Below, piece after piece: positions 882 through 37,811 of a stretch of 39,068 bases of DNA (position 1 is its first letter; each line of letters starts with the position of its first letter). Below the pieces are notes generated by a model. That model did no database searches. It was not told the origin of the DNA and saw nothing but the letters and a program-made list of their open reading frames with translations. The translations under genes were made by a program, and so were the position numbers. Source of the stretch: Opitutus sp. GAS368 (GTDB lineage: Bacteria > Verrucomicrobiota > Verrucomicrobiia > Opitutales > Opitutaceae); contig CAMBVX010000020.1 of assembly GCA_945871085.1 (NCBI GenBank), forward strand, positions 1 through 39,068, written 5' to 3'.

Positions 882-977
882 GGGCGGTGAGGGAGTGAGG
901 CGTGTGGTGCCGAGGGGCGGTCTGCGAGGGGCGGTCTGCCGCTTGACACCATCCCGCGCCGGAGAACGCTCTACGCC

Positions 978-1211
978 ATGCAAGCAAGCGTCCGCGAGTT
1001 TACCCGCAAGTTTCCCGCGTATCGTCGGGCCGCCTTGGCCGGCAAAGAAATCCGCGTGCAGGACCGTAAGGGCAACGGCTTCGTGTTTCGCGCCGCGCAG
1101 GGCCAGCCGGCGGGCGAACCTGTCAGCCTCGCCGCCGCGATGGGCGATTTGCTCGGTGCGGTGAGCAGCGGCCGGCGCAAGAAGACGCTGGCTGGTTACG
1201 GCCGTGATTGA
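978..1211 (+). CDS. Putative antitoxin of a VapBC-like module
   Basis: 77-aa ORF (MQASVREFTRKFPAYRRAALAGKEIRVQDRKGNGFVFR…) overlapping the PIN toxin start by 8 nt. Confidence 0.65.
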   Translation: MQASVREFTRKFPAYRRAALAGKEIRVQDRKGNGFVFRAAQGQPAGEPVSLAAAMGDLLGAVSSGRRKKTLAGYGRD

Positions 1212-1614
1212 GGCGATTCTCGACACCGGTCCGCTCGTCGGCGCACTCGACCGCGACGACCAGTGGCACGCGTGGGCCGCAGAGCAATTTGCCGCGATCC
1301 AAACTCCCGCGCTCACGTGCGAAGCGGTGATTTCGGAAGCCTGTTTCCTGCTGCGCACGGTGCCCGGTGCGCGGGACAAGATTTTTGCTTTGGTGGAGCG
1401 TGGGTTGGTGCGGGTCGTGCCGGTGTTGCCCGGCGAATCGCCGGCGGTGCGGGCGTTGCTCGCGCGCTACGGGGAGCGCATGGACTACGCGGACGCCTGT
1501 CTCGTGCGGCTGGCGGAACTACACCGGGACCGCCCGGTCGTGACGACCGACGCGAACGATTTTCGAATTTATCGGCGGTTTGGAAAGCAGACGCTGGAAC
1601 TGATCGTGCCGTGA
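1204..1614 (+). CDS. PIN-domain toxin (VapC-like)
   Basis: 136 aa: ILDTGPLVGALDRDDQWHAWA…EACFLL…MDYADACLVRLAE…VVTTDANDFRIYRRFG, PIN acidic residues and VVTTDxxDF motif. Confidence 0.85.
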   Translation: MIEAILDTGPLVGALDRDDQWHAWAAEQFAAIQTPALTCEAVISEACFLLRTVPGARDKIFALVERGLVRVVPVLPGESPAVRALLARYGERMDYADACLVRLAELHRDRPVVTTDANDFRIYRRFGKQTLELIVP

Positions 1615-1639
1615 GCCAAAGCAGCCCGGCGGGTTTGCT

Positions 1640-1711
1640 TGTGCCAAGCGCGCCGACGTGGGCGGACATCGAGCCGGCGGAGGCGGCGGAGCGGGCGAGA
1701 GCGGGGCGGTG
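1640..1711. repeat. Dispersed GC/G-rich repeat, copy R3 (divergent)
   Basis: cgccgacgtgggcggacatcgagccggcggaggcggcggagcgggcgagagcgggg aligns with R1/R2. Confidence 0.65.
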
Positions 1712-1727
1712 AGGGCGGTCTGAACGG

Positions 1728-2115
1728 CTACCAGACCACTTGCACGCTGCAGACCGGGAAAGCGCGGTCGGACGAAACGACCGCCAAGTCGTGCAGCAAC
1801 GCGTGAGCGAGGATTGATGCGGTCGAAAGGGTCCTGGTGTTGTGGCGGCAGTTCGCAGCCGCGCAGCAGGACGTCGGCGGTCATGGGCCGTTCGACCAGT
1901 CCCCATTTCCCAACCTGCTCGGTCCACCACCGGCGCGGCGCATCGGGCAGCACCCGTTTTCCCGCGTGGTGCGTGAGCGTAATTTCCCCGAGCGTCGCAT
2001 GGCTGACCGGCAGCGCGGCCTCCGGAGCCTTGATGGCGGCGGTCGCGGCCGGGCTCAGGCGGGCGGGTTCGCTCGCGAGCCAAAGGAGGGCGCAGGAATC
2101 GAGGAGCCGATTTAC
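1728..2115 (-). pseudogene. Frameshifted PIN-domain toxin (VapC-like)
   Basis: Frame 1 reads (V)NRLLDSCALLWLASEPARLS…LPVSHATLGEITLTHHAGKRVLP…LPPQHQDPFDRI and continues in another frame as ILAHALLHDLAVVSSDRAFPVCSVQVVW*. Join around + 1811-1822 (gaccgcatcAATCctcgct on -), consistent with a 4-nt insertion. No canonical in-frame start at the 5' end. Confidence 0.75.
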
Positions 2116-2354
2116 AACAAATCCAGCTCGTTCATTCCGGCATCATCGAGCGCGGCAAGCGACGCGGAGGTCCACTTAACTGGAGCCGAGGTCGTCACGC
2201 CGACTTTCGGGCGCAACGTTGCGGGCAAGGCGAGGAGCGGAATGAGTTTTGCGACCGCGGTCGCACCGTCGCGCAGGAGAATTTCTTCGCCGTCCTGCAC
2301 CTGATACCAACGTCTCGTGATATTTGGACGATAGTCGAAACACCACTCGCTCAC
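2112..2354 (-). CDS. Phd/YefM-like antitoxin; predicted N-terminus lies in a REP/MITE-like element
   Basis: …YQVQDGEEILLRDGATAVAKLIPL…WTSASLAALDDAGMNELDLL*; the usual Phd N-terminal segment is missing. Confidence 0.6.
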   Translation of the reverse strand: MSEWCFDYRPNITRRWYQVQDGEEILLRDGATAVAKLIPLLALPATLRPKVGVTTSAPVKWTSASLAALDDAGMNELDLL

Positions 2355-2398
2355 GCTCGCAGCTACCAGCAGTCAACAACTCAAATGACGTTGGTCTG
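2300..2398. mobile_element. MITE/REP-like element, copy B
   Basis: 9-bp terminal inverted repeats ACCAACGTC (2306-2314) / GACGTTGGT (2387-2395); the interior ccactcgctcacgctcgcagctacc and terminal tcaaatgacgttggtct match copy A at 6057-6187. Confidence 0.65.
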
Positions 2399-2593
2399 AC
2401 GCATGAGCTGCGGGAAATGGGTTTCGGCGTAGGCCAAGGTCGCTTCCAGGCGGAGACATTGCGGGGAGCCGTCGCCGGGTCAACGAGCCGGCGAATCCTC
2501 GCGGCGGGACCCCGCCGCTGTTCAGCCGGCGGAGACCCGGTGGCGATGGTGCACAACCCCCAGCTGGCGCTCTGGATCCGTTTCGACGCCTGC

Positions 2594-5500
2594 TCAGAAG
2601 CTGCCCTTGAGCCCGGCGGAGAGCTGCACGCCATACGTCGTGACCTGGTAGCGGCGGGCGTAGCCGGGCGTGTCGGGGCCGTAGCGGAGGAGGACTTCGG
2701 GGACGTTGAAGATATTTTGCGCGCTGAGGTAGAGGCCGATGTTTTTCCGGACCTGCCACTCAGCGTTGAGATCGACGGTGGTGCGCGGCTGGCTGTATTG
2801 GAAACCGTTCACGCCCGTCACGACGGCACCGCGCTGGCGGCCGCGGTAGTTCCACTTGGCGAGGAAGGAGAGGGGCCCGCGGTGGTAGCTCGCGCCCCAA
2901 CTGCCGCTCTCGGGGATGAACGCGGTGAAGTTCGCTTGCTGGCTGCCGACGAGCTCGAGCTTGGTGGCGTTGGCAAAAACCTGGATGGTCCGGCCCCACT
3001 CGCCGAGCGGGCGCAGCGAGTGGCGCGCGCTGAACTCGAGGCCGCGTACGCGGGCGATGCCCGGCAGGTTGAACTGCGTGACGAGTTCCCAGCCGGCGTA
3101 TTCGGGGCCGAGGCCGACCGCGGCGAGACTGTCGGCCGTGGCGAGGCGCGTGGAGCTGCCGAAGAAGTCGCGAATCTCCTTGGCGAACCCGCCGACGCTG
3201 AAGAGGCCCCCGGCATCGGTGTAGTACTCGAGGGAGACATCGAAGTTGTCGGCGGACCACGGGCGAAGGCCGGTGTTGCGGATGGTGATGCGGCCGGGGA
3301 GTTGCTGCGGATTGATCGCGGCCTCCAGGTCGGCCTCGTCGATGGTGGAGTTGGGGACGATGTTGGTGAAGTCGGGCCGGCCGTAGGTCTGGGCGAAGGA
3401 CGCGCGCGCCTGAAGATTCTCGCGGATATGGTAGGTGAGGTGAATGCTTGGGTAGTAACCTTCGTAGGTGCGGGCGGCGCGGACGCCGCGCTCCGCACGG
3501 ATGAGACGCAACTCCTCGCCGGAGCCAACGGTGCCGGCAGCGGGTTTGCGGATGCGGGCGCCGGCGGCGGTGTGCGCGTAGGTGCCGTCGGCGTCGCGTT
3601 CCCACACGGCGTTGGGATCGGCGAGGACGCCTTCGCCCTTGGCGGAGGTTTTCTCGAAGCGCACCCCGGTGAGGATTTTCAGGCGGTTGCGGAACAGGCC
3701 GGCCTCGGCTTGTAGGTAGAAAGCGGTGACGCCTTCCTGCAGGTGCTCGGAGTTGTTGACGCGGAACAACTCCTCGGCGACGACCTGCGCGGGTGTCTTG
3801 GACCAGAGCGTGGGGTTGGCCTTGAAGGCCTCCCACGCCTTGTAAACCGAGATCCACGGCATGTTGCGGAAACCAAAACTTTCCTCCTGCCCGACGTAAG
3901 TCGTCATGCGGTAGGGCGTGGGCGAGTCGATCGTGGCGGCGTTGCCGTCGGGGCCGTTGTAGGTCCAGTTGATGCTCTCGCGGCGGACGTCGCGCTGTTG
4001 GATGCGCTCCGAGCCGCCGACCTGGAGCGCGGCGGGAAACGGGAGGAAACCGAGGCTCTTCCGCACGTCGAGTTTGGCGGTGACCATGGCGTCGTGGATG
4101 TAGCGGGGCGTGGAGTTGGCGGTGTTGAGACGGTAGTTGTCGAGGTTGTACAGGTCGACTTCCTGGTTGGCGTTGTCGAAGAGCCGGATGGTGCGCGGGC
4201 GATCTTGATCGACGTCGGCAAGGACGAGGCGGCCGGGATTGCGCAACGCGGTGCCGAGCGTGCGGAAGCGGCCGTGGATCGTATCCTGATAACCGCCTTC
4301 GGACTTGGAAAAACCGAGGCCGCTCTCGACGCGCCAGTCGCCGTTGTCGAAACGATAGCGGGTGTTGCCGGCGCGGGTGTCGAGCTGGTGACGGACGGAG
4401 GCGTGCAGGCCCATGAGCGAGACGCCGGCGCGGCCGGTGGCGCCGTTCGTGAACCCGTCGCCGTAGGTCATCGCCATGCCGCCGACCAGGGTGGGCGTGG
4501 GGTTCGTGCCGGTGTCGAATGCAGCGGACGTCGAGGAGCGGTCGGAGACAAAGCGGCTGGCCTCCACATTGGCGGAGAGCACGCCGTTGGGGGTGACGCG
4601 CCAGTCGGCGCGCACGCCGGCGGAGTTGCGGGTGTTGAGTCGCGGCGAAGCGGGCAACTGGAACTGTTGGAGAAACGGCCGGGCAAACGTCGCGCCGGTG
4701 CCGGCCGCGGTGGCGTTGTAGGCCTTGAGCGCGAGCTGCTGCCACATGTAGCGGTTCTGCACCTGGCCCGTGACGACGAGGCCGAAGTTCCGTGACACCG
4801 GCAACGTGTAGTCGAAGTTCGCGGACGGGCGGACCATCTGGACCTTTTTATCGGGCGTGTGCGGCTGGGCCGCGAGAGCGAGGTGATGCTGGTTGCCGGA
4901 GAGGCTGATCGAGTAGCGGAGCTGCGCGGTTTTCCGCTCAAACGCGCTTTTGCTGACCATGTTGATCGAGCCGGACATCGAGTCGGCGGGCGTCGAGGGG
5001 GTGGGCGACTTCGTGACCTCAAGGCGCGCGAGGTTGTTCATCGAGACCTGCGTGAACTGGAAAACGCGTGAGCTGCCCTGGGGATTGCCGGTGTTGGCCA
5101 GTTGCATGCCGTCGCCCGAGACGACGGCCATGCTCGTGGGAAAACCGCGCACGGCCACCGAGGAGACGGAGCTGCCGGACTCGGCGTCGTATTCCGCGGT
5201 GATGCCGGGGAGAAACTTGAGGAACTCGCCGACGTTGCCGTCGGTGACTTCGCCGAACGCGTCGGCCGCGATCACGTTTTTCAAGTTGGGCGCGAAGCGC
5301 TGTTCGTTGATCGCAATGGCGGCGCCATCGGTCTCGCGGCCGGTCGAGACCTTGAAGGCATCGAGCTGGATGGTGCCGTCCGCCCGAGCGGTGCGTCCGC
5401 CGCTCGCGAGATCGACGTTGCGCTCGACGATCTGGCCCGGCGCCACGGTCACGGTGACCTCCTGCGGGTCGAGCCCGGTGAAGAAAACTTGGAGCACGGT

Positions 5501-5725
5501 CGCGCCGGGGGGCAGGGCGGGGATGCGGTAGGTGCCGGACTCGTCGGTGAACACGACGCGGTCGGTTCCGCGGACGGTGAGGCGGGCGTTGTTGAGGAAT
5601 TGCCCGTTGGCGACGTTTTGCACGCGCCCGGAAATCGCGCCGGTGTTTTCGGCGGAGCGGACGGCGGTGGTGAGGGCGAGGGTGCTCGCAAGAAGGAAAA
5701 CGCCGATGCGACGGAGGAGGTTCAT
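2594..5725 (-). CDS. TonB-dependent receptor with N-terminal carboxypeptidase-regulatory-like domain
   Basis: 1043 aa; signal peptide, GAISGRVQNVANGQFLNNARLTVRGTDRVVFTDESGTYRI, plug-domain signatures (VAVRGFPTSMAVVSGDGMQ, LEVTKSPTPSTPADSMSGSINMVSKSAF), C-terminal aromatic Phe. Confidence 0.95.
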   Translation of the reverse strand: MNLLRRIGVFLLASTLALTTAVRSAENTGAISGRVQNVANGQFLNNARLTVRGTDRVVFTDESGTYRIPALPPGATVLQVFFTGLDPQEVTVTVAPGQIVERNVDLASGGRTARADGTIQLDAFKVSTGRETDGAAIAINEQRFAPNLKNVIAADAFGEVTDGNVGEFLKFLPGITAEYDAESGSSVSSVAVRGFPTSMAVVSGDGMQLANTGNPQGSSRVFQFTQVSMNNLARLEVTKSPTPSTPADSMSGSINMVSKSAFERKTAQLRYSISLSGNQHHLALAAQPHTPDKKVQMVRPSANFDYTLPVSRNFGLVVTGQVQNRYMWQQLALKAYNATAAGTGATFARPFLQQFQLPASPRLNTRNSAGVRADWRVTPNGVLSANVEASRFVSDRSSTSAAFDTGTNPTPTLVGGMAMTYGDGFTNGATGRAGVSLMGLHASVRHQLDTRAGNTRYRFDNGDWRVESGLGFSKSEGGYQDTIHGRFRTLGTALRNPGRLVLADVDQDRPRTIRLFDNANQEVDLYNLDNYRLNTANSTPRYIHDAMVTAKLDVRKSLGFLPFPAALQVGGSERIQQRDVRRESINWTYNGPDGNAATIDSPTPYRMTTYVGQEESFGFRNMPWISVYKAWEAFKANPTLWSKTPAQVVAEELFRVNNSEHLQEGVTAFYLQAEAGLFRNRLKILTGVRFEKTSAKGEGVLADPNAVWERDADGTYAHTAAGARIRKPAAGTVGSGEELRLIRAERGVRAARTYEGYYPSIHLTYHIRENLQARASFAQTYGRPDFTNIVPNSTIDEADLEAAINPQQLPGRITIRNTGLRPWSADNFDVSLEYYTDAGGLFSVGGFAKEIRDFFGSSTRLATADSLAAVGLGPEYAGWELVTQFNLPGIARVRGLEFSARHSLRPLGEWGRTIQVFANATKLELVGSQQANFTAFIPESGSWGASYHRGPLSFLAKWNYRGRQRGAVVTGVNGFQYSQPRTTVDLNAEWQVRKNIGLYLSAQNIFNVPEVLLRYGPDTPGYARRYQVTTYGVQLSAGLKGSF

Positions 5726-6056
5726 GGGGTTAAAAGGTAACGGACAGGTTGTCGGTCAGAGGGAGTAAATTGCAAAGCGGAGGAGCTTGTACCGCATTCG
5801 GTCGGGGGAGTTTACGAGCGCCGACGATGGCGCGACCGTTGGGGCGGACAAAAAATGAACGGGGTAGGGCGGGTCAGTCGATGGGGGACTGGAGGATGTT
5901 CAAGTCGATTCCGGCCGTTTTTTTGCCGCCGGTCGGACTCCGCCGATGAACGTTTCCCTTGAAGCCAGCTTGCCGGCTCGCGGGGTGCGGACTTCGGACG
6001 AGGCTGAACGATGCCTCTGCGGCCCGGGTAACGGCCCCGAGCCGTGGTCGCTATAA

Positions 6057-6187
6057 CCTGATATCAATCGCCCAAATGAGTCAGACTTTGATTTGCCGGG
6101 TAGCCGCGAGCGCCAGCGCGTGGTGATCCGTCCACTCGCTGGCGCTCGCGGCGACCGAATAGTCCAGAGTTCAAAGGACGTTGGTCT
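6057..6187. mobile_element. MITE/REP-like element, copy A, with a long hairpin
   Basis: Perfect 16-bp inverted repeat GCCGCGAGCGCCAGCG (6103-6118) / CGCTGGCGCTCGCGGC (6137-6152), with an inner GTGG/CCAC stem; flanks cctgatatcaa…gacgttggtct shared with copy B. Confidence 0.75.
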
Positions 6188-7061
6188 AGGTGACCGGCGA
6201 GGGCGCGGCGTCGAGCGAGTCGGCCGCGATCGGGGCCAACGTTGCCACTTCGCCGGCGAGGGCCTGGTCGACCCAGCGTTTGATGCGGGTGAGGCCTTCG
6301 TTGCGGCGCGGATCGTCGCGCTTCATGGTGCCGAGCAGATTGATCACGGTCTCGGAGTAATCGAGGGCATTGGCGGTGAGGAGCGTCGGCAGTTCGAAGG
6401 GGTTGATCTCGCCCTTGCGGATCATCGCGCGGGCCTCGCGTTCGAGTTCCATCGTGCTCCCGCCGACCGCGCCGGGGTCGGATTTTCCCTTGGAAAAACC
6501 GCCCCCACCACCCGCCGAGGTGTCGCTGGACTGGCCTTCGGTTTTGCCGCGGGGCTGGCGCTGGAGCTGCGCGGGATACTCTTTGCCGTCGCGGCCCGTC
6601 ACGGTGGTGGGGTGGTCGAGCTTGCCGGCTTGGGCCATTTCGTTGCGGCAACGGCGAACGAGATCGACGGAAACACGGCACAGTTCGGCGAGGACGGGGT
6701 TGGCCTTGTCGGGCCATTCTTCGAGGGCGATTTCGGCGGCGTTACGTTTGTCGGCATTGGTGCGGCAGACGCCGTTGGTGGCGTTGGCGCCGAGGGCGTG
6801 GCGGAGGGCGTCGGAGCGACCGCCGGGCTGGACGGTCGCCAGGATCGTCGGGAGTTGGTTGCGTTTCGTCGCGAGGTAGCGGTGAAAACCGTCGGCCAGC
6901 CAGTAAGTGGCCCCATCAAAATAGACGTCGATCGGGGGGAAGACGGTGCCTTGGGTCATCTCATCGGCGTAACTCTCCACTGCTTCGTCGGTGGTTTGGA
7001 CGCGGGCTTGGGTGCCGCCGTAGAGGTTGATCGAGTCGAGAGGAAGTTTTTGCGGCTCCAT
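6186..7061 (-). CDS. ParB/Srx-like nuclease-domain protein (orphan)
   Basis: LPLDSINLYGGTQAR…FPPIDVYFDGATYWLADGFHRYLATKRN is ParB-N like; Gly-rich linker in the C-terminal half. Confidence 0.8.
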   Translation of the reverse strand: MEPQKLPLDSINLYGGTQARVQTTDEAVESYADEMTQGTVFPPIDVYFDGATYWLADGFHRYLATKRNQLPTILATVQPGGRSDALRHALGANATNGVCRTNADKRNAAEIALEEWPDKANPVLAELCRVSVDLVRRCRNEMAQAGKLDHPTTVTGRDGKEYPAQLQRQPRGKTEGQSSDTSAGGGGGFSKGKSDPGAVGGSTMELEREARAMIRKGEINPFELPTLLTANALDYSETVINLLGTMKRDDPRRNEGLTRIKRWVDQALAGEVATLAPIAADSLDAAPSPVT

Positions 7062-31692: not shown

Positions 31693-31810
31693 GGGGGGAG
31701 GTTAGGAGGGACTCGTCGGGGAAGACAAGCAACGCGCCGCTCATCCTCTGGCGTCCGCCGTTTGTCCAAAGTTTGCGCTGCGAATTGGAAGCGGGTGTAG
31801 TGTGCGCCAA

Positions 31811-32947
31811 ATGGAAGCCGTTCCGACCACTGATGTCCTGTTTGACGCTGGGCTGCGCCGCGAACGCGCGAAGCAGCGGCTCTACGTGATCTGCCAAACG
31901 GTGGGCTGGGGCCTGTTTCTCGTGCTGCAGCTCGCGTTCACCCGAGTCTTTTGGTCGCGCCGGGCGACATCGGCGGCTGAGCAGATCACGGATGTGTGTG
32001 TCATTGTGATGGTCATTCTCCTGGGACTGTTGATTTCGCATTACGCTCGGCGATTGGCCACACGTTGGGGTTGGAAAAATATGGGTTGGCGGGCGTTATT
32101 GCCCCGGGTGCTCGCGGGCAGCGTTGCGCAATCGGCCCTGTGGTCGTTGGTGGGGTTTGGTTTTACGCATGGCGTGTTGCAGCTGCCGGCTCGTTCCGAT
32201 TTTGGGATTTGGGTTTCGATCGCCATCAGCGTGATCAACGGCGCGATGATGTTTGCCGGCTGGTGGTGTGTTTACGTCCTCTACCATCTCTTCGACCGTT
32301 ACAATCGGCTTGAGATTGAGCGTTTGCGGGTGGGCGCGGCGGTGAAAGAAGCGGAGCTCCGGGCGCTCAAGGCGCAGGTGAATCCGCACTTTATTTTCAA
32401 CTCGCTGAACTCGCTGCGGGCATTGATCGACGAAGATCCGGCGCGCGCGCGGCAATCGGTGACGCAGCTCGCAAATTTACTCCGCTACTCGCTGCAGAGC
32501 GGCCAACAGGAGACCGTGCCGTTCGAGGATGAACTGCGGGTGGTGAACGACTACCTCTCGCTCGAGCAGGTGCGGCACGAAGAGCGGTTGCGGGTGCGGC
32601 TCGACATTGCGCCCGAAACGCTCGTCCTGCCGGTGCCGCCGATGCTGCTCCAGACGCTCGTGGAGAATGCGGTCAAATATGGTATTTCCAACCGCACGGA
32701 AGGCGGAGAAATCGCGATCATTGCGCGTTGTGAGGGCGGTGCGCTGAGATTGCAGGTGACGAATCCGGGTGAACTCGCGACGAGTGGGGTGAAGCCACAC
32801 GCGGCGTCGACCGGGGTCGGTTTACGCAATGCGGCCGAGCGTTTGCGGTTGTTGTTTGGCGAGGGAGCGACGCTGCGATTGCGGGCGGAGACACCGGCCC
32901 TGGTGATGGCGGAAGCGATTTTACCTCTGGCGGCGACCCGCGCATGA
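31811..32947 (+). CDS. LytS-type sensor histidine kinase
   Basis: N-terminal TM segments; LKAQVNPHFIFNSLNSLRALIDEDP…LRYSLQSGQQETVPFEDELRVVNDYLSLEQVRHEERL…PPMLLQTLVENAVKYGI. Confidence 0.93.
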   Translation: MEAVPTTDVLFDAGLRRERAKQRLYVICQTVGWGLFLVLQLAFTRVFWSRRATSAAEQITDVCVIVMVILLGLLISHYARRLATRWGWKNMGWRALLPRVLAGSVAQSALWSLVGFGFTHGVLQLPARSDFGIWVSIAISVINGAMMFAGWWCVYVLYHLFDRYNRLEIERLRVGAAVKEAELRALKAQVNPHFIFNSLNSLRALIDEDPARARQSVTQLANLLRYSLQSGQQETVPFEDELRVVNDYLSLEQVRHEERLRVRLDIAPETLVLPVPPMLLQTLVENAVKYGISNRTEGGEIAIIARCEGGALRLQVTNPGELATSGVKPHAASTGVGLRNAAERLRLLFGEGATLRLRAETPALVMAEAILPLAATRA

Positions 32948-33681
32948 AAGCCCTGCTAATCGACGACGAGCGCTTGGCGCGCAACGAACTCCGCCGCTTG
33001 CTCGCGGCCTTTCCCGAGATCGAGATCGTGGGCGAGGCGGCGAACGCGAAAGTGGCGCGCGAGCAGCTCGCCGCACTGCAACCTGACTTGCTGTTTCTCG
33101 ATGTGCAGATGCCGGGCGAGACGGGTATGGAATTTCTGGAGTCGCTGGAGGCGCCGGTGCCGCAGGTGATTTTCACGACCGCCTACGATGAATTTGCCGT
33201 GAAAGCGTTTGAGCTGAACGCGCTCGATTATTTGTTGAAACCCGTGGATCCCGCGCGGTTGGCGCTGGCGATGGGGAAGCTGCACGAGAAAATGGTGGCT
33301 CCGGCGGGCGCCGCAGCGACGGGGAAGACGGCCCCGCGGGATCGGCTCGCGGCGGAGGACAAAGTTTTTGTGCGCGAAGGCGACCGGTGCTGGTTTGTCG
33401 AGGTGCGGTCGATCCGCTTGCTCGAGAGCGAGGGCAACTACACCCGGGTGCATTTTGAGAATGCGCAGCCGCAGCTCTTTCGTTCGCTCAACGCGATGGA
33501 GGAGCGGCTCGACCCGAAGTTTTTCTTCCGCGCGAATCGCCGCGAGATGATCAACCTCGCGTGGATCGACAAGATCGAGCCGTGGTTTAGCGGCGGGCTG
33601 CTGGTGCACCTCAAGGGCGGCGCGAAGGTCGAGCTCAGCCGCCGGCAAGCGCAGGAGTTTCGCGACAAGATGAGCCTGTGA
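32944..33681 (+). CDS. LytTR-family response regulator
   Basis: MKALLIDDERLARNELRRLL…DLLFLDVQMPGETGMEFLE…FTTAYDEFAVKAFELNALDYLLKPV; LytTR C-terminus; ATGA overlap. Confidence 0.95.
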   Translation: MKALLIDDERLARNELRRLLAAFPEIEIVGEAANAKVAREQLAALQPDLLFLDVQMPGETGMEFLESLEAPVPQVIFTTAYDEFAVKAFELNALDYLLKPVDPARLALAMGKLHEKMVAPAGAAATGKTAPRDRLAAEDKVFVREGDRCWFVEVRSIRLLESEGNYTRVHFENAQPQLFRSLNAMEERLDPKFFFRANRREMINLAWIDKIEPWFSGGLLVHLKGGAKVELSRRQAQEFRDKMSL

Positions 33682-33691
33682 ATATTTCTCG

Positions 33692-34435
33692 ATGATCGAA
33701 GCCCGCCACCTCACTAAAACTTTCCGTGACAAGCGGCGCGGTGAGATCCGTGCGGCGGACGACATTTCCTTCCACGTTTCCCCGGGGCAAATTTACGGCC
33801 TGCTGGGGGCCAACGGCGCAGGCAAGACCACGACGTTGCGGTTGCTAGCCACGCTGCTCAAACCGACGGGCGGGAGTGCGACGGTGGCGGGCTTCGATGT
33901 CGCGCGCCAACCGGAGAAGGTCCGGGCGAATGTCGGCTTTCTCGCCGCCAGCACGGCGCTCTACGGCCGGCTGACGGCGCGGGAGATGATCGCGTATTTC
34001 GGGAAACTGAACGGGTTGCCCGACGCGGAGATTCGCGGGCGCACCAAACGCATCGCGGACGAACTCGATATGCACGAATTCCTCGACCGGCGGTGCGATA
34101 AATTTTCCACGGGCATGAAGCAGAAGACTTCGATCGCCCGGACGCTCATCCACGATCCGGCGGTGATGATCTTTGATGAGCCGACGCTCGGGCTCGATGT
34201 GATGACGGCGCGGGCGATCGTGAAATTCGTGCGCGAGTGCCGCAACCGCGGCAAGACGGTGATCTATTCGACGCACGTCATGAGCGAAGTGGAAAAACTC
34301 TGCGACACGATCGGCATCATCCATGGCGGAAAGTTGATGGCCGAAGGGACGCTGGCCGGCTTGCGCGCCACCCATGGCGAACAGGACATGGAAGAGATTT
34401 TTGTGAAGATCGTCGGGGCGGAGGACGCGAAATGA
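33692..34435 (+). CDS. ABC transporter ATP-binding protein, NatA-like
   Basis: [21 protein letters not shown]…[34 protein letters not shown]. Confidence 0.93.
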
Positions 34436-35670
34436 ACTGGACCAATATTCTCACGGTTTATTTGAAGGAGTTGAAGGATTCGCTGCGTGATCGGCGCACG
34501 CTCATTTCGATGGTTGTCATTCCGACAATCGCCATGCCCGGTCTGTTTGCTCTCGTCGCCTTCATTTCATTCAAGGTGGCGAGCGAGGTCGCGGCGACTG
34601 CGCCCACGATCATGGTGATCGGCGGCGACGATTCGCCACGTGTTCGCGGCGCGTTGATCGCGCATCCCACGGTTAAAGTTCTGCCGATAGCCGGGGCGTG
34701 GAAGCAGCAGATTGCCGACAAACAACTGCGCGCCGCGGTCGAGCTGCCGGCGGGCCTCGATGCGGCGCTGGAGCGCGGCGAGTCGCCCGGGATCACGGTT
34801 TACAACTACGACGGCGAAATGCGTTCGGGCCGCGCCGTGCAAGAAGTGCGGGCGTTTTTTTCCGCGTATGCCGAGACGATCGTCGTGGCGCGACTCGGGG
34901 AGCGGGGCCTCACGCCGGCGGCGATCAAGCCCTTGGTGGTGAAAACCGAAAACGTCGCGCCCCCCGAAAAAGTGGGCGGTAATGTGATCGGGGGATTCAT
35001 CCCGTATTTCTTCCTGATCCTCGCCTTCACCGGTGCGATGTATACGGCGATGGACCTGACTGCCGGAGAAAAGGAGCGCGGAACGATGGAGACACTGTTG
35101 TGCAGCCCGGTCGGGCGCGGGGATATCGTGGTGGGGAAATTTCTGATGATTTTGACCGCCTCCCTCGGCACGGTCGCGTGCTCGTTGGTTTCGATGGGGG
35201 TCACGCTGACGGTGGGCGGGGCGCTTCTCGTGCAAAAGATCGGCGCCGCCGGGACCGCGGCGGCGACGCGCTCGGCGGATCGGTTCAGTGCGATGATGAC
35301 GCTAGACCCGCTCGGCCTGATTGGTGTGCTCGGGATGCTGTTACCGATGGTCGTGTTGTTTTCGGCGGCGCTTTTTGCGATCTCGTTGTTGGCGAAAAAT
35401 TACAAGGAAGCGCAGACCTATGTTTCACCCCTGATCATCGTGATCCTGATGCCCGCGATGATTGGAATGCTGCCAGGCGTGGAACTCAACTGGCGCCTCG
35501 CCCTCGTGCCCGTGCTGAACGTCTCACTGGCGAGCAAAGAACTGGTCTCGGGCGTGTGGCATTGGGATCTGCTCGCTTTGATTTTTGGTTCGTCGTGCGT
35601 TTATGCGGCGGTGGCGCTGTGGCTGGCGGTGAAGATGTTCAATCGTGAGGACGTGATTTTCCGGGCGTGA
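34432..35670 (+). CDS. ABC transporter permease, NatB-like (ABC-2 type)
   Basis: VYLKELKDSLRDRRTLISMVVIPTIAMP…TAGEKERGTMETLLCSPVGRGDIVVGKFLM; ATGA overlap with the ATPase gene. Confidence 0.9.
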   Translation: MNWTNILTVYLKELKDSLRDRRTLISMVVIPTIAMPGLFALVAFISFKVASEVAATAPTIMVIGGDDSPRVRGALIAHPTVKVLPIAGAWKQQIADKQLRAAVELPAGLDAALERGESPGITVYNYDGEMRSGRAVQEVRAFFSAYAETIVVARLGERGLTPAAIKPLVVKTENVAPPEKVGGNVIGGFIPYFFLILAFTGAMYTAMDLTAGEKERGTMETLLCSPVGRGDIVVGKFLMILTASLGTVACSLVSMGVTLTVGGALLVQKIGAAGTAAATRSADRFSAMMTLDPLGLIGVLGMLLPMVVLFSAALFAISLLAKNYKEAQTYVSPLIIVILMPAMIGMLPGVELNWRLALVPVLNVSLASKELVSGVWHWDLLALIFGSSCVYAAVALWLAVKMFNREDVIFRA

Positions 35671-35814
35671 CGATGGGGCGGCTGCCATTACGTAAAAAAT
35701 ATTCAAAACCGGGACTTGGACCGGTAAAGCCGCGGTAAAACCCCGGTGCAGCTATGGCGTGCGGAGGGTGATGGGGTCTATGATGGCGAACGTCGGACAT
35801 CCCCTCAAACAGCC

Positions 35815-36414
35815 ATGAACACACTCATCACCTTTCCCGCGCGCCCGCCCGCGCTTAAACTTACGCGTTCAGTCACCGCCGTGCCTGCGGCCGAAGAGAA
35901 ATGGGTCGTGGCGCTCGCCGAGGAACGCCGCCGCCTCGCCGAAGATCATGACGCGTTGCGCGTGCGGGAAGAAAATCTCCGCGACTACGAGTCGAGGCTG
36001 CGCGCGCTTCAGGCGGAAATTGAGGTGGGCCGGACGACCGCCGTCGCGAGCGGGAGAAGCCAGACGCCGTTCGTGCGGCCCACGAGCAAGGCCCCGTTTG
36101 AGAGCGAGGCGGCGCTGCAAGGGGCGTGGGAGAAATTTCACCGCGCGCGCGAACTGCTGGAAGCCGAGCAGACGCACCTCCGCGATGAACGCATCAGCAC
36201 GCAGGAGAGCGAAAAGGAGATCAAGCGTCGCGAGAAAGCGGTGACGGAGCGCGAGGCGCGGGTGGCGGCGCAGGAGCGATTGTTGGCGGAGGCGGACGAA
36301 GCGTCCGCAGCGGCGCAACCGGTCGCAGCGGAGCATACGATGTCGGCGGTGACGCGCCTCACGCGGGCGCCGTTTGACATGGCGCGCTCGATGTTTGGCG
36401 GACGGAAATCGTGA
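35815..36414 (+). CDS. Coiled-coil protein of unknown function
   Basis: 199 aa, extended charged helical region (EERRRLAEDHDALRVREENLRDYESRLRALQ…). Confidence 0.7.
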   Translation: MNTLITFPARPPALKLTRSVTAVPAAEEKWVVALAEERRRLAEDHDALRVREENLRDYESRLRALQAEIEVGRTTAVASGRSQTPFVRPTSKAPFESEAALQGAWEKFHRARELLEAEQTHLRDERISTQESEKEIKRREKAVTEREARVAAQERLLAEADEASAAAQPVAAEHTMSAVTRLTRAPFDMARSMFGGRKS

Positions 36415-36479
36415 CGGCTCACGCGCGTTTTTGAAAAACGGCTTGCGCTGAAGTCGCTGAACACTCATCCCGTCCCGCA

Positions 36480-36605
36480 ATGTATTTTTCCGCCTGCGCC
36501 GTCGCTGCTGCTGCCGCCGTCAAACTGACGGTCGCTAAACGCGCACGCTGGCACGGGTCGGCTTGGCGACGATGGACAGGCGCTGAACTTCAGCGCCACG
36601 GCTGA
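36480..36605 (+). CDS. Candidate leader peptide with three Trp codons (MYFSACAVAAAAAVKLTVAKRARWHGSAWRRWTGAELQRHG*)
   Basis: 41-codon ORF below the ORF-track cutoff, between a TTGAAA element and a terminator; no strong Shine-Dalgarno seen. Confidence 0.4.
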   Translation: MYFSACAVAAAAAVKLTVAKRARWHGSAWRRWTGAELQRHG

Positions 36606-36632
36606 AAAAAGCCGCAACCTGCCACCGCCAAG

Positions 36633-36658
36633 CCCGACTCACCCGAGTCGGGTTTTTT
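36633..36658 (+). terminator. Intrinsic terminator/attenuator-like hairpin
   Basis: CCCGACTC-ACCC-GAGTCGGG followed by TTTTTT. Confidence 0.9.
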
Positions 36659-36708
36659 GTTTTCACGATCCCAACCGCCCGCTGTTCCCTCTCTTCCCAC
36701 TGCTTCCC

Positions 36709-37479
36709 ATGGCTACGCTTCTCGTTCCACCGCCTTCGCCGACCGCCGCTTCGCCGCGCAGCTCGGTGCCTCCTACACAGTCGCCGCCGATCAAGCTGCC
36801 CTCGGTGGCCGGCGGCGGCCGCACGTTGGCTGAATACGCCCAGTTTTTCGCGCTCGATGTGCCGGCGCTGAAGAATCGCGACGTGCTGGATGTCGCGGCC
36901 GGGCCGTCGTCGTTTGTGGCGGAGGCGTGCGCGCGAGGGATTGACGCAGTGGCCGTCGATCCGCGCTACGGCAGCACGCCCGACTCGCTGGCAACGCACG
37001 TGCAGCTCGACGACGCGAGCAGGCGGACGCAGCTGCGCGCGAGGCCGGAGTTGTTTCGGAGGAGAGCGTTTGCTTCGTGCGAGACGGCGGAGGCGGATCG
37101 GCGCAGCGCGGCGCAACGGTTTTTGACGGACTACGAGACGCATTTTGTGCACGGGCGCTACGTCGGCGGGGCGCTGCCACGGCTGCCGTTTTTCGACAAC
37201 GCGTTCGACCTCGTGCTGTGCGCGCACCTGTTGTTTATCTCCGCGAAACGATTTGAGCTGGAGTGGCAGGTCGCGGCGTGCCGCGAGCTGGTGCGGGTGA
37301 GTGCGGGGGAAGTGCGTGTTCATCCGGTGTGCGGCGCGGATGGTAAGCCGTATCCCAAACTCGCGGCGCTGCGGCGGGAGCTGCGGGCCGACGGCATTGG
37401 GAGCGAGGTCGTGCGCGTGGACTATGAGTTTTTCATCGGCAGCAGCGCCATGCTGGTGTTGAAGAAGGGCACGTCATGA
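36709..37479 (+). CDS. Class I SAM-dependent methyltransferase-like protein
   Basis: NRDVLDVAAGPSSFVAEACARGIDAVAVDPRYG…LPFFDNAFDLVLCAHLLF. Confidence 0.8.
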   Translation: MATLLVPPPSPTAASPRSSVPPTQSPPIKLPSVAGGGRTLAEYAQFFALDVPALKNRDVLDVAAGPSSFVAEACARGIDAVAVDPRYGSTPDSLATHVQLDDASRRTQLRARPELFRRRAFASCETAEADRRSAAQRFLTDYETHFVHGRYVGGALPRLPFFDNAFDLVLCAHLLFISAKRFELEWQVAACRELVRVSAGEVRVHPVCGADGKPYPKLAALRRELRADGIGSEVVRVDYEFFIGSSAMLVLKKGTS

Positions 37480-37811
37480 GCCACCCCACCGCCCTCGCCC
37501 GCACGCCGGAGCCGCCTTACTACGCGGTGGTTTTTACGTCGCTGCGCACGGTCGGCGACCACGGCTATGACGCGATGGCGGCGCGCATGGTGGAACTTGG
37601 TTCCAGCTACGAGGGGTTTTTGGGCATCGAGAGTGCGCGCGGCGAGGACGGTATGGGCGTCACCGTGAGTTACTGGCGCGACGAGGCGGCGATCTTTGCG
37701 TGGAAGCGCGATCCGGAACATCAGCAGGCGCAGCGCGGAGGAAGCGAGGTGTGGTATGCCGACTACGCGGTGCGAGTGGCCAAGGTGGAACGTGCCTACG
37801 GGAAATTCTGA
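37476..37811 (+). CDS. Antibiotic-biosynthesis-monooxygenase (ABM) fold protein
   Basis: YYAVVFTSLRTVGDHGYDAMAARMVELGSSYEGFLGIESARGEDGMGVTVSYWRDEAAIFAWKRDPEHQQAQ; ATGA overlap with the methyltransferase. Confidence 0.88.
   Translation: MSHPTALARTPEPPYYAVVFTSLRTVGDHGYDAMAARMVELGSSYEGFLGIESARGEDGMGVTVSYWRDEAAIFAWKRDPEHQQAQRGGSEVWYADYAVRVAKVERAYGKF

Follow-up and report, generated by a model that had tools for sequence, protein, structure and literature searches.

An attenuator-type leader was found at positions 36443-36662 of the window, the 39,068-nt stretch of Opitutus sp. GAS368 DNA that was analysed. It lies directly 5' of a gene for a class I SAM-dependent methyltransferase (36709-37479, + strand). 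Judged from sequence, the leader is very probably a ribosome-mediated transcription attenuator that reads the tryptophan supply and controls the methyltransferase gene. The preliminary description had proposed an attenuator-like leader with Trp codons before a methyltransferase gene that is not a trp gene. This is supported by a conserved leader ORF, its Trp codons and two conserved helices, an antiterminator formed by strands 2 and 3 and an intrinsic terminator. As a rule, an attenuator that senses an amino acid sits on a gene for the synthesis, import or tRNA charging of that amino acid, and Trp-sensing attenuators are known from tryptophan-making operons. The case presented here is a known mechanism with a new target in a new lineage. 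No description of such leaders in Verrucomicrobiota was found in the searched open-access literature or in Rfam. An Rfam search at gathering and permissive thresholds gave nothing credible, with no family above the gathering threshold. The leader was the sole candidate on both strands of the 39-kb window for a Trp-containing short ORF followed by a strand-2/strand-3 helix and a terminator, and the same three-part scan of 20 local shuffles returned no candidates. All leader features described below are on the + strand.

The window's group was the GTDB family of Opitutaceae-like genomes, which includes Opitutus, Lacunisphaera, Geminisphaera colitermitum TAV2 and Pelagicoccus. The downstream methyltransferase was present in 68 of 200 family genomes. 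Upstream DNA was read for the fetched homologues; 62 had the leader, two were cut off or partial and three from another branch of the family had no leader upstream. Wherever the upstream region could be read, a methyltransferase of the clade was preceded by the leader (62/62; more than 60 genomes). Cultured carriers include Geminisphaera colitermitum TAV2, a Pelagicoccus strain and Verrucomicrobiae bacterium DG1235 (loci L104, L134 and L117). In the phylogenetic tree the leader-bearing methyltransferases formed one supported group (99/95), with the leader in 58/58 compared to 0/23 outside it. Homologues of the methyltransferase occur in many phyla without the leader. A covariance model, R1, was trained on 52 methyltransferase leaders and run over the 200 family genomes. 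It returned 63 matches at E values of 2.2e-8 or better, comprising 61 methyltransferase leaders and two leaders on which it had not been trained. Weaker matches (E values of about 1e-7 to 1e-3; 18 loci, two in the window's genome) were rejected as plain terminators, belonging to longer genes that lack a comparable leader. Strong matches in a phylum-wide R1 scan, which could miss diverged leaders, were confined to the window's family. R1 is a calibrated model for annotating such leaders.

The two untrained-on leaders (L251, G067:C118; L252, G087:C103) precede an anthranilate synthase gene. At these two loci only does the regulated gene make, import or charge Trp; in the window it is a methyltransferase gene with no known tie to Trp, which counts against the Trp reading. 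The leader peptides are MSKLLPSLLSPAQVGAWWRYSGSEKVTRT and MSHLRSLCFAPAQGWAWWWHSGSEKATRR, with ...GAWWRYSGSEKVTRT and ...GWAWWWHSGSEKATRR. Strand 2/strand 3 and a terminator are present in both leaders, and each has a similarly spaced TTGACA-like element. The trpEGDCBA operon at the L251 locus (907-6619) is compact and its ORFs overlap; six of six genes were matched by Pfam. In L252 the check covered the leader, trpE and the beginning of the gene that follows. That a model trained on methyltransferase leaders also picks out the leader of trp operons links the signal to Trp, and this is the strongest evidence for Trp. The TrpE proteins of L251 and L252 are approximately 44% identical to the canonical trpE of other genomes; compared to them, the trpE of those genomes, the window's among them, is of a distant type. 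The trp operon of L251 and L252 was possibly acquired horizontally. The upstream regions of canonical trpE in the window's genome and about 37 relatives contained no WW leader with a terminator, and so Trp biosynthesis there would be controlled otherwise, a further point against the Trp reading.

The leader ORF (36480-36605) has 41 codons followed by TGA and encodes the peptide MYFSACAVAAAAAVKLTVAKRARWHGSAWRRWTGAELQRHG. It contains three Trp codons (36549-36551, 36564-36566 and 36573-36575). Trp codon 24 (36549-36551) is the conserved control codon, and WW or WWW is found here in half of the relatives. The ORF was present in 62/62 relatives, with a length of 26 to 45 codons and an ATG or GTG start, and each of these ORFs had an in-frame Trp codon. 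At least two Trp codons, a clustering typical of Trp attenuators, were present in 55/62 and WW or WWW in 32/62, for example ...GAWWRGSKVWRW. Example leader peptides from relatives are MKNAAASSLETGALLGKGAWWRCSKVWRWRS and MNATATYAEYAVPAMTYARGWWWRRTAWRW. Residues in the N-terminal half were not conserved. Substitutions there were evenly spread over codon positions 1, 2 and 3 (255, 289 and 246, respectively), and a peptide function of this part was therefore rejected. Residues free to vary are as expected if the control codons alone matter. Arg was set aside as the sensed amino acid because no Arg codon was common to all leaders.

Near the control codons the leader ORF is Arg- and Lys-rich in the window's own subclade, which counts against the Trp reading. 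Such peptides (KRARW...WRRW) could stall the ribosome as macrolide-induced leaders do, in which case the ORF would respond not to Trp but to a stalling drug or to translation stress in general. This alternative draws on the methyltransferase target, on the R-x-R-like motifs (KRAR) of the subclade and on the uORF attenuators of such kind already known (PMC8632094). It is very unlikely, as many distant leaders have no R-x-R (GAWWRGSKVWRWRS) and the Trp codon alone is shared by every leader. The freely varying N-terminal residues, the trp operons preceded by the same leader and the lack of an rRNA-methyltransferase family match for the methyltransferase also argue against it, and the leader is read here as sensing Trp.

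Strand 2, the antiterminator 5' arm (GGCTTGGCG, 36560-36568), pairs with strand 3, the antiterminator 3' arm (CGCCAAGCC, 36626-36634), which overlaps the base of the terminator 5' arm. The intrinsic terminator (36630-36658) has an 11-pair stem (36630-36655), a 4-nt loop and a U-run to 36658. It is located between the leader ORF and the methyltransferase gene, as in an attenuator, and is the best-conserved part of the leader. Two hairpins (36579-36597 and 36599-36614) were predicted by folding within the antiterminator loop; hairpins recur at this place in relatives with variable sequence. The leader ORF, both of these hairpins, a third hairpin at 36517-36531 and the terminator had all been placed correctly in the preliminary description. 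This third hairpin is weak when relatives are compared. A pairing of 36555-36564 with 36630-36640 had also been proposed; it exists, but the conserved core is the longer pairing of strand 2 with strand 3.

Both helices were supported by covariation. In the strand 2:3 helix 93.4% of cells were paired, with changes on both sides at 6/9 pairs. In the terminator helix 97.5% of cells were paired and 7/11 pairs had changed on both sides. In controls with the partner slid by 1-3 columns, pairing was at most about 50% for strand 2:3 and about 56% for the terminator. The pairing score of strand 2 with its own strand 3 was 985 compared to 823 (sd 17) for permuted partners and was reached in 0/2000 permutations, a figure uncorrected for relatedness. 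In one such change, TTGG to TCGG in strand 2 pairs with CCAA to CCGA in the partner; Trp 29 becomes Arg and the first Trp stays. The anti-antiterminator 1:2 pairing was weak (own score 723.5, permuted 695, sd 14; 43/2000 as high). On the 3' side of strand 2, at the last Trp codon (RRW/WRW; columns 45-50 of alignment A2), GATGG was kept in most leaders although a ribosome stalled at that codon would mask strand 2. The conserved GATGG may have a role in RNA pairing rather than decoding.

As expected of an antiterminator, the covarying strand 2:3 helix and the 5' arm of the terminator have 4-7 nt in common at most loci. A real caveat is that exclusion of the terminator is confined to its base, the lowest 4-7 pairs of the stem. 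The first Trp codon is mostly 11, 14 or 17 nt from the start of strand 2, in whole-codon steps as W turns into WW or WWW. With this spacing a ribosome at the (last) Trp of the cluster would leave strand 2 mostly free, and a ribosome at the stop codon would cover it. Folding with the 5' parts masked agreed with the spacing on this geometry. The fold of the leader with no ribosome had a z of -2.6, and the region from the control codon to the U-run had a z of -4.5. When strand 2 was exposed in the way a ribosome at Trp 24 would expose it, most of the predicted antiterminator helix had pair values of 0.85-1.0; with strand 2 masked only the full terminator remained. In equilibrium folding with strand 2 exposed, most of the antiterminator coexisted with a 7-8 pair upper terminator hairpin, so that switching would rely on the base of the stem by the U-run or on kinetics. 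The exclusion may be partial or kinetic and the switching incomplete.

A promoter-like element (36443-36470) precedes the ORF. It is comprised of CTTGC (-35-like; 36443-36447), a spacer of about 17 nt and xCATcc (-10-like). The TTGAAA palindrome (36426-36440) of the preliminary description is present but not conserved; it is CTTGC at 36443 that is conserved instead, 36-40 nt 5' of the start codon in most relatives. A strict sigma-70 scan gave no consensus promoter. TTG was found 32-41 nt 5' of the leader start codon in 53/62 loci, with a peak at 36-39 nt that is somewhat favoured by the method, since start codons were chosen partly by distance to the TTG/promoter-like feature. A Shine-Dalgarno-like motif was present in 1/62 related leaders. 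Taken with the TTG distance, this fits a transcript that starts at or beside the start codon, and the leader ORF is apparently leaderless.

In the proposed mechanism RNA polymerase would start at or next to the start codon of the ORF, and a ribosome would load on this leaderless ORF. With ample charged tRNA-Trp the ribosome would reach the stop codon and cover strand 2, strand 3 would pair with strand 4 to form the terminator, and an RNA of about 180 nt would be released. When Trp is short the ribosome would stall at Trp codon 24 and leave strand 2 largely free for strand 3. The strand 2:3 pairing would then break the base of the terminator, and the methyltransferase and following genes would be transcribed.

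The terminated RNA of about 180 nt could instead act mainly in trans, as a small RNA or small mRNA, with cis control of the methyltransferase secondary. A promoter-like element of its own, a leaderless ORF and a strong terminator would yield a discrete RNA, and S. meliloti rnTrpL/peTrpL, for which a trans-acting role was proposed, is a precedent (PMC7298713). A plain small RNA has no need of the strand 2:3 covariation, which together with the strict association with one downstream gene points to cis control. Beyond the Trp cluster the peptide was also not conserved, and a mainly trans-acting RNA is considered highly unlikely. The terminated leader may still serve as a small RNA in addition to its cis role.

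The gene context was compared at 46 loci. An ABM monooxygenase gene was a neighbor at 13, deoA at 20 and the coiled-coil gene at 22. As the neighboring genes vary, the methyltransferase is the constant target. In the window the ABM-domain monooxygenase-like gene (37476-37811, + strand; Pfam PF03992) overlaps the methyltransferase stop codon and is probably co-transcribed with it. The coiled-coil gene (35746-36414) is upstream and encodes a protein of 222 amino acids with no Pfam match above cutoff. Upstream of it is a LytTR-type two-component system (histidine kinase, response regulator) with an ABC-2 transporter pair after it (31802-35670).

The strong conservation of the terminator would also suit a terminator serving the upstream gene only, with the ORF and the pairing as by-products. 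Against this, the coiled-coil gene is upstream at only 22/46 loci and the leader stays with the methyltransferase. In addition the ORF, the Trp codons, strand 2 and the promoter-like element are all conserved. These comparative data refute the by-product explanation unless the covariation is an artefact, which leaves it extremely improbable. A lack of conservation in relatives, or conservation as a plain terminator of the upstream gene, would have spoken against the preliminary description by its own terms; neither was seen. In related genomes the ORF and the pairing were conserved, the leader followed the methyltransferase rather than the upstream gene, and the same architecture preceded two trp operons. 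Control of the methyltransferase by a Trp attenuator is the reading followed below.

The methyltransferase of the window has 256 amino acids, one of them Trp, and a borderline match to Pfam Methyltransf_11. AlphaFold2 gave a model with a pLDDT of 85.6, and Foldseek aligned it to many class I methyltransferases at low identity with no substrate assignment. Sequence searches of NCBIfam and the PDB found no convincing relative. The Trp content of the leader-bearing methyltransferases was 0.25 per 100 amino acids compared to 0.71 in homologues without the leader. Trp-free proteins accounted for 29/58 of the leader-bearing and 0/36 of the homologues without the leader (p = 4e-11, uncorrected for phylogeny). 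A low Trp content would be expected of a protein produced under Trp scarcity. In the leader-bearing proteins FFGRS takes the place of the motif VPWGRS seen in other phyla. In L073 and L074 (G194 and G068) the leader was intact and the methyltransferase frame was short after the conserved GR motif; the gene is possibly decayed or frameshifted. The homologue at G011:C1:1899784-1900539 was matched in two pieces of one 339-aa frame, with the leader present and a GTG start, which suggests an insertion between motifs.

A Trp leader on this gene suggests a role for the enzyme when tryptophan is depleted. A bolder and tentative possibility, to which somewhat less than even weight is given, is that the methyltransferase is a dedicated Trp-limitation enzyme, selected to be nearly Trp-free and expressed solely under a shortage of charged tRNA-Trp. 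Such an enzyme would carry out an undescribed step in the Trp economy or starvation response of Opitutaceae under an attenuator shared with, and possibly recruited from, a trp operon. Conservation of an attenuator on its gene throughout a bacterial family gives this uncharacterised methyltransferase a testable physiological context, Trp limitation. The leader also adds to the attenuator ORFs outside Proteobacteria that appear to be leaderless.

The leader was compared to known systems. In E. coli trpL a pair of neighboring Trp codons precedes Arg (PMC1183508). Many leaders here share this feature (WWR), along with alternative 2:3/3:4 helices and an intrinsic terminator before the first gene, with no sequence homology shown. 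The leader here differs in that it is on a methyltransferase gene rather than trp genes and is apparently leaderless; its antiterminator overlaps only the base of the terminator and the 1:2 helix is weak or absent. The trpL mRNA of Sinorhizobium meliloti begins with the ATG, and consecutive Trp codons decide between terminator and antiterminator (PMC7298713). This trpL-trpE(G) attenuator resembles the leader here in its leaderless ORF (putative here) and consecutive Trp codons, while the target gene differs and the ORF here is longer (26-45 compared to 14 codons). The trpL leaders in the trpR-trpB intergenic region of Chlamydia, a member of the same superphylum, have predicted Trp-rich leader peptides near a Trp gene (PMC3937554) but differ in host pathway, sequence and target. 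The uORFC-8-2 motif before cysS in Rhodobacterales (PMC8632094) is similar in that ribosome-mediated attenuation was predicted comparatively, with tandem control codons and a non-biosynthetic target. There Cys codons precede a tRNA synthetase gene with an obvious logic, whereas here Trp codons precede a methyltransferase gene.
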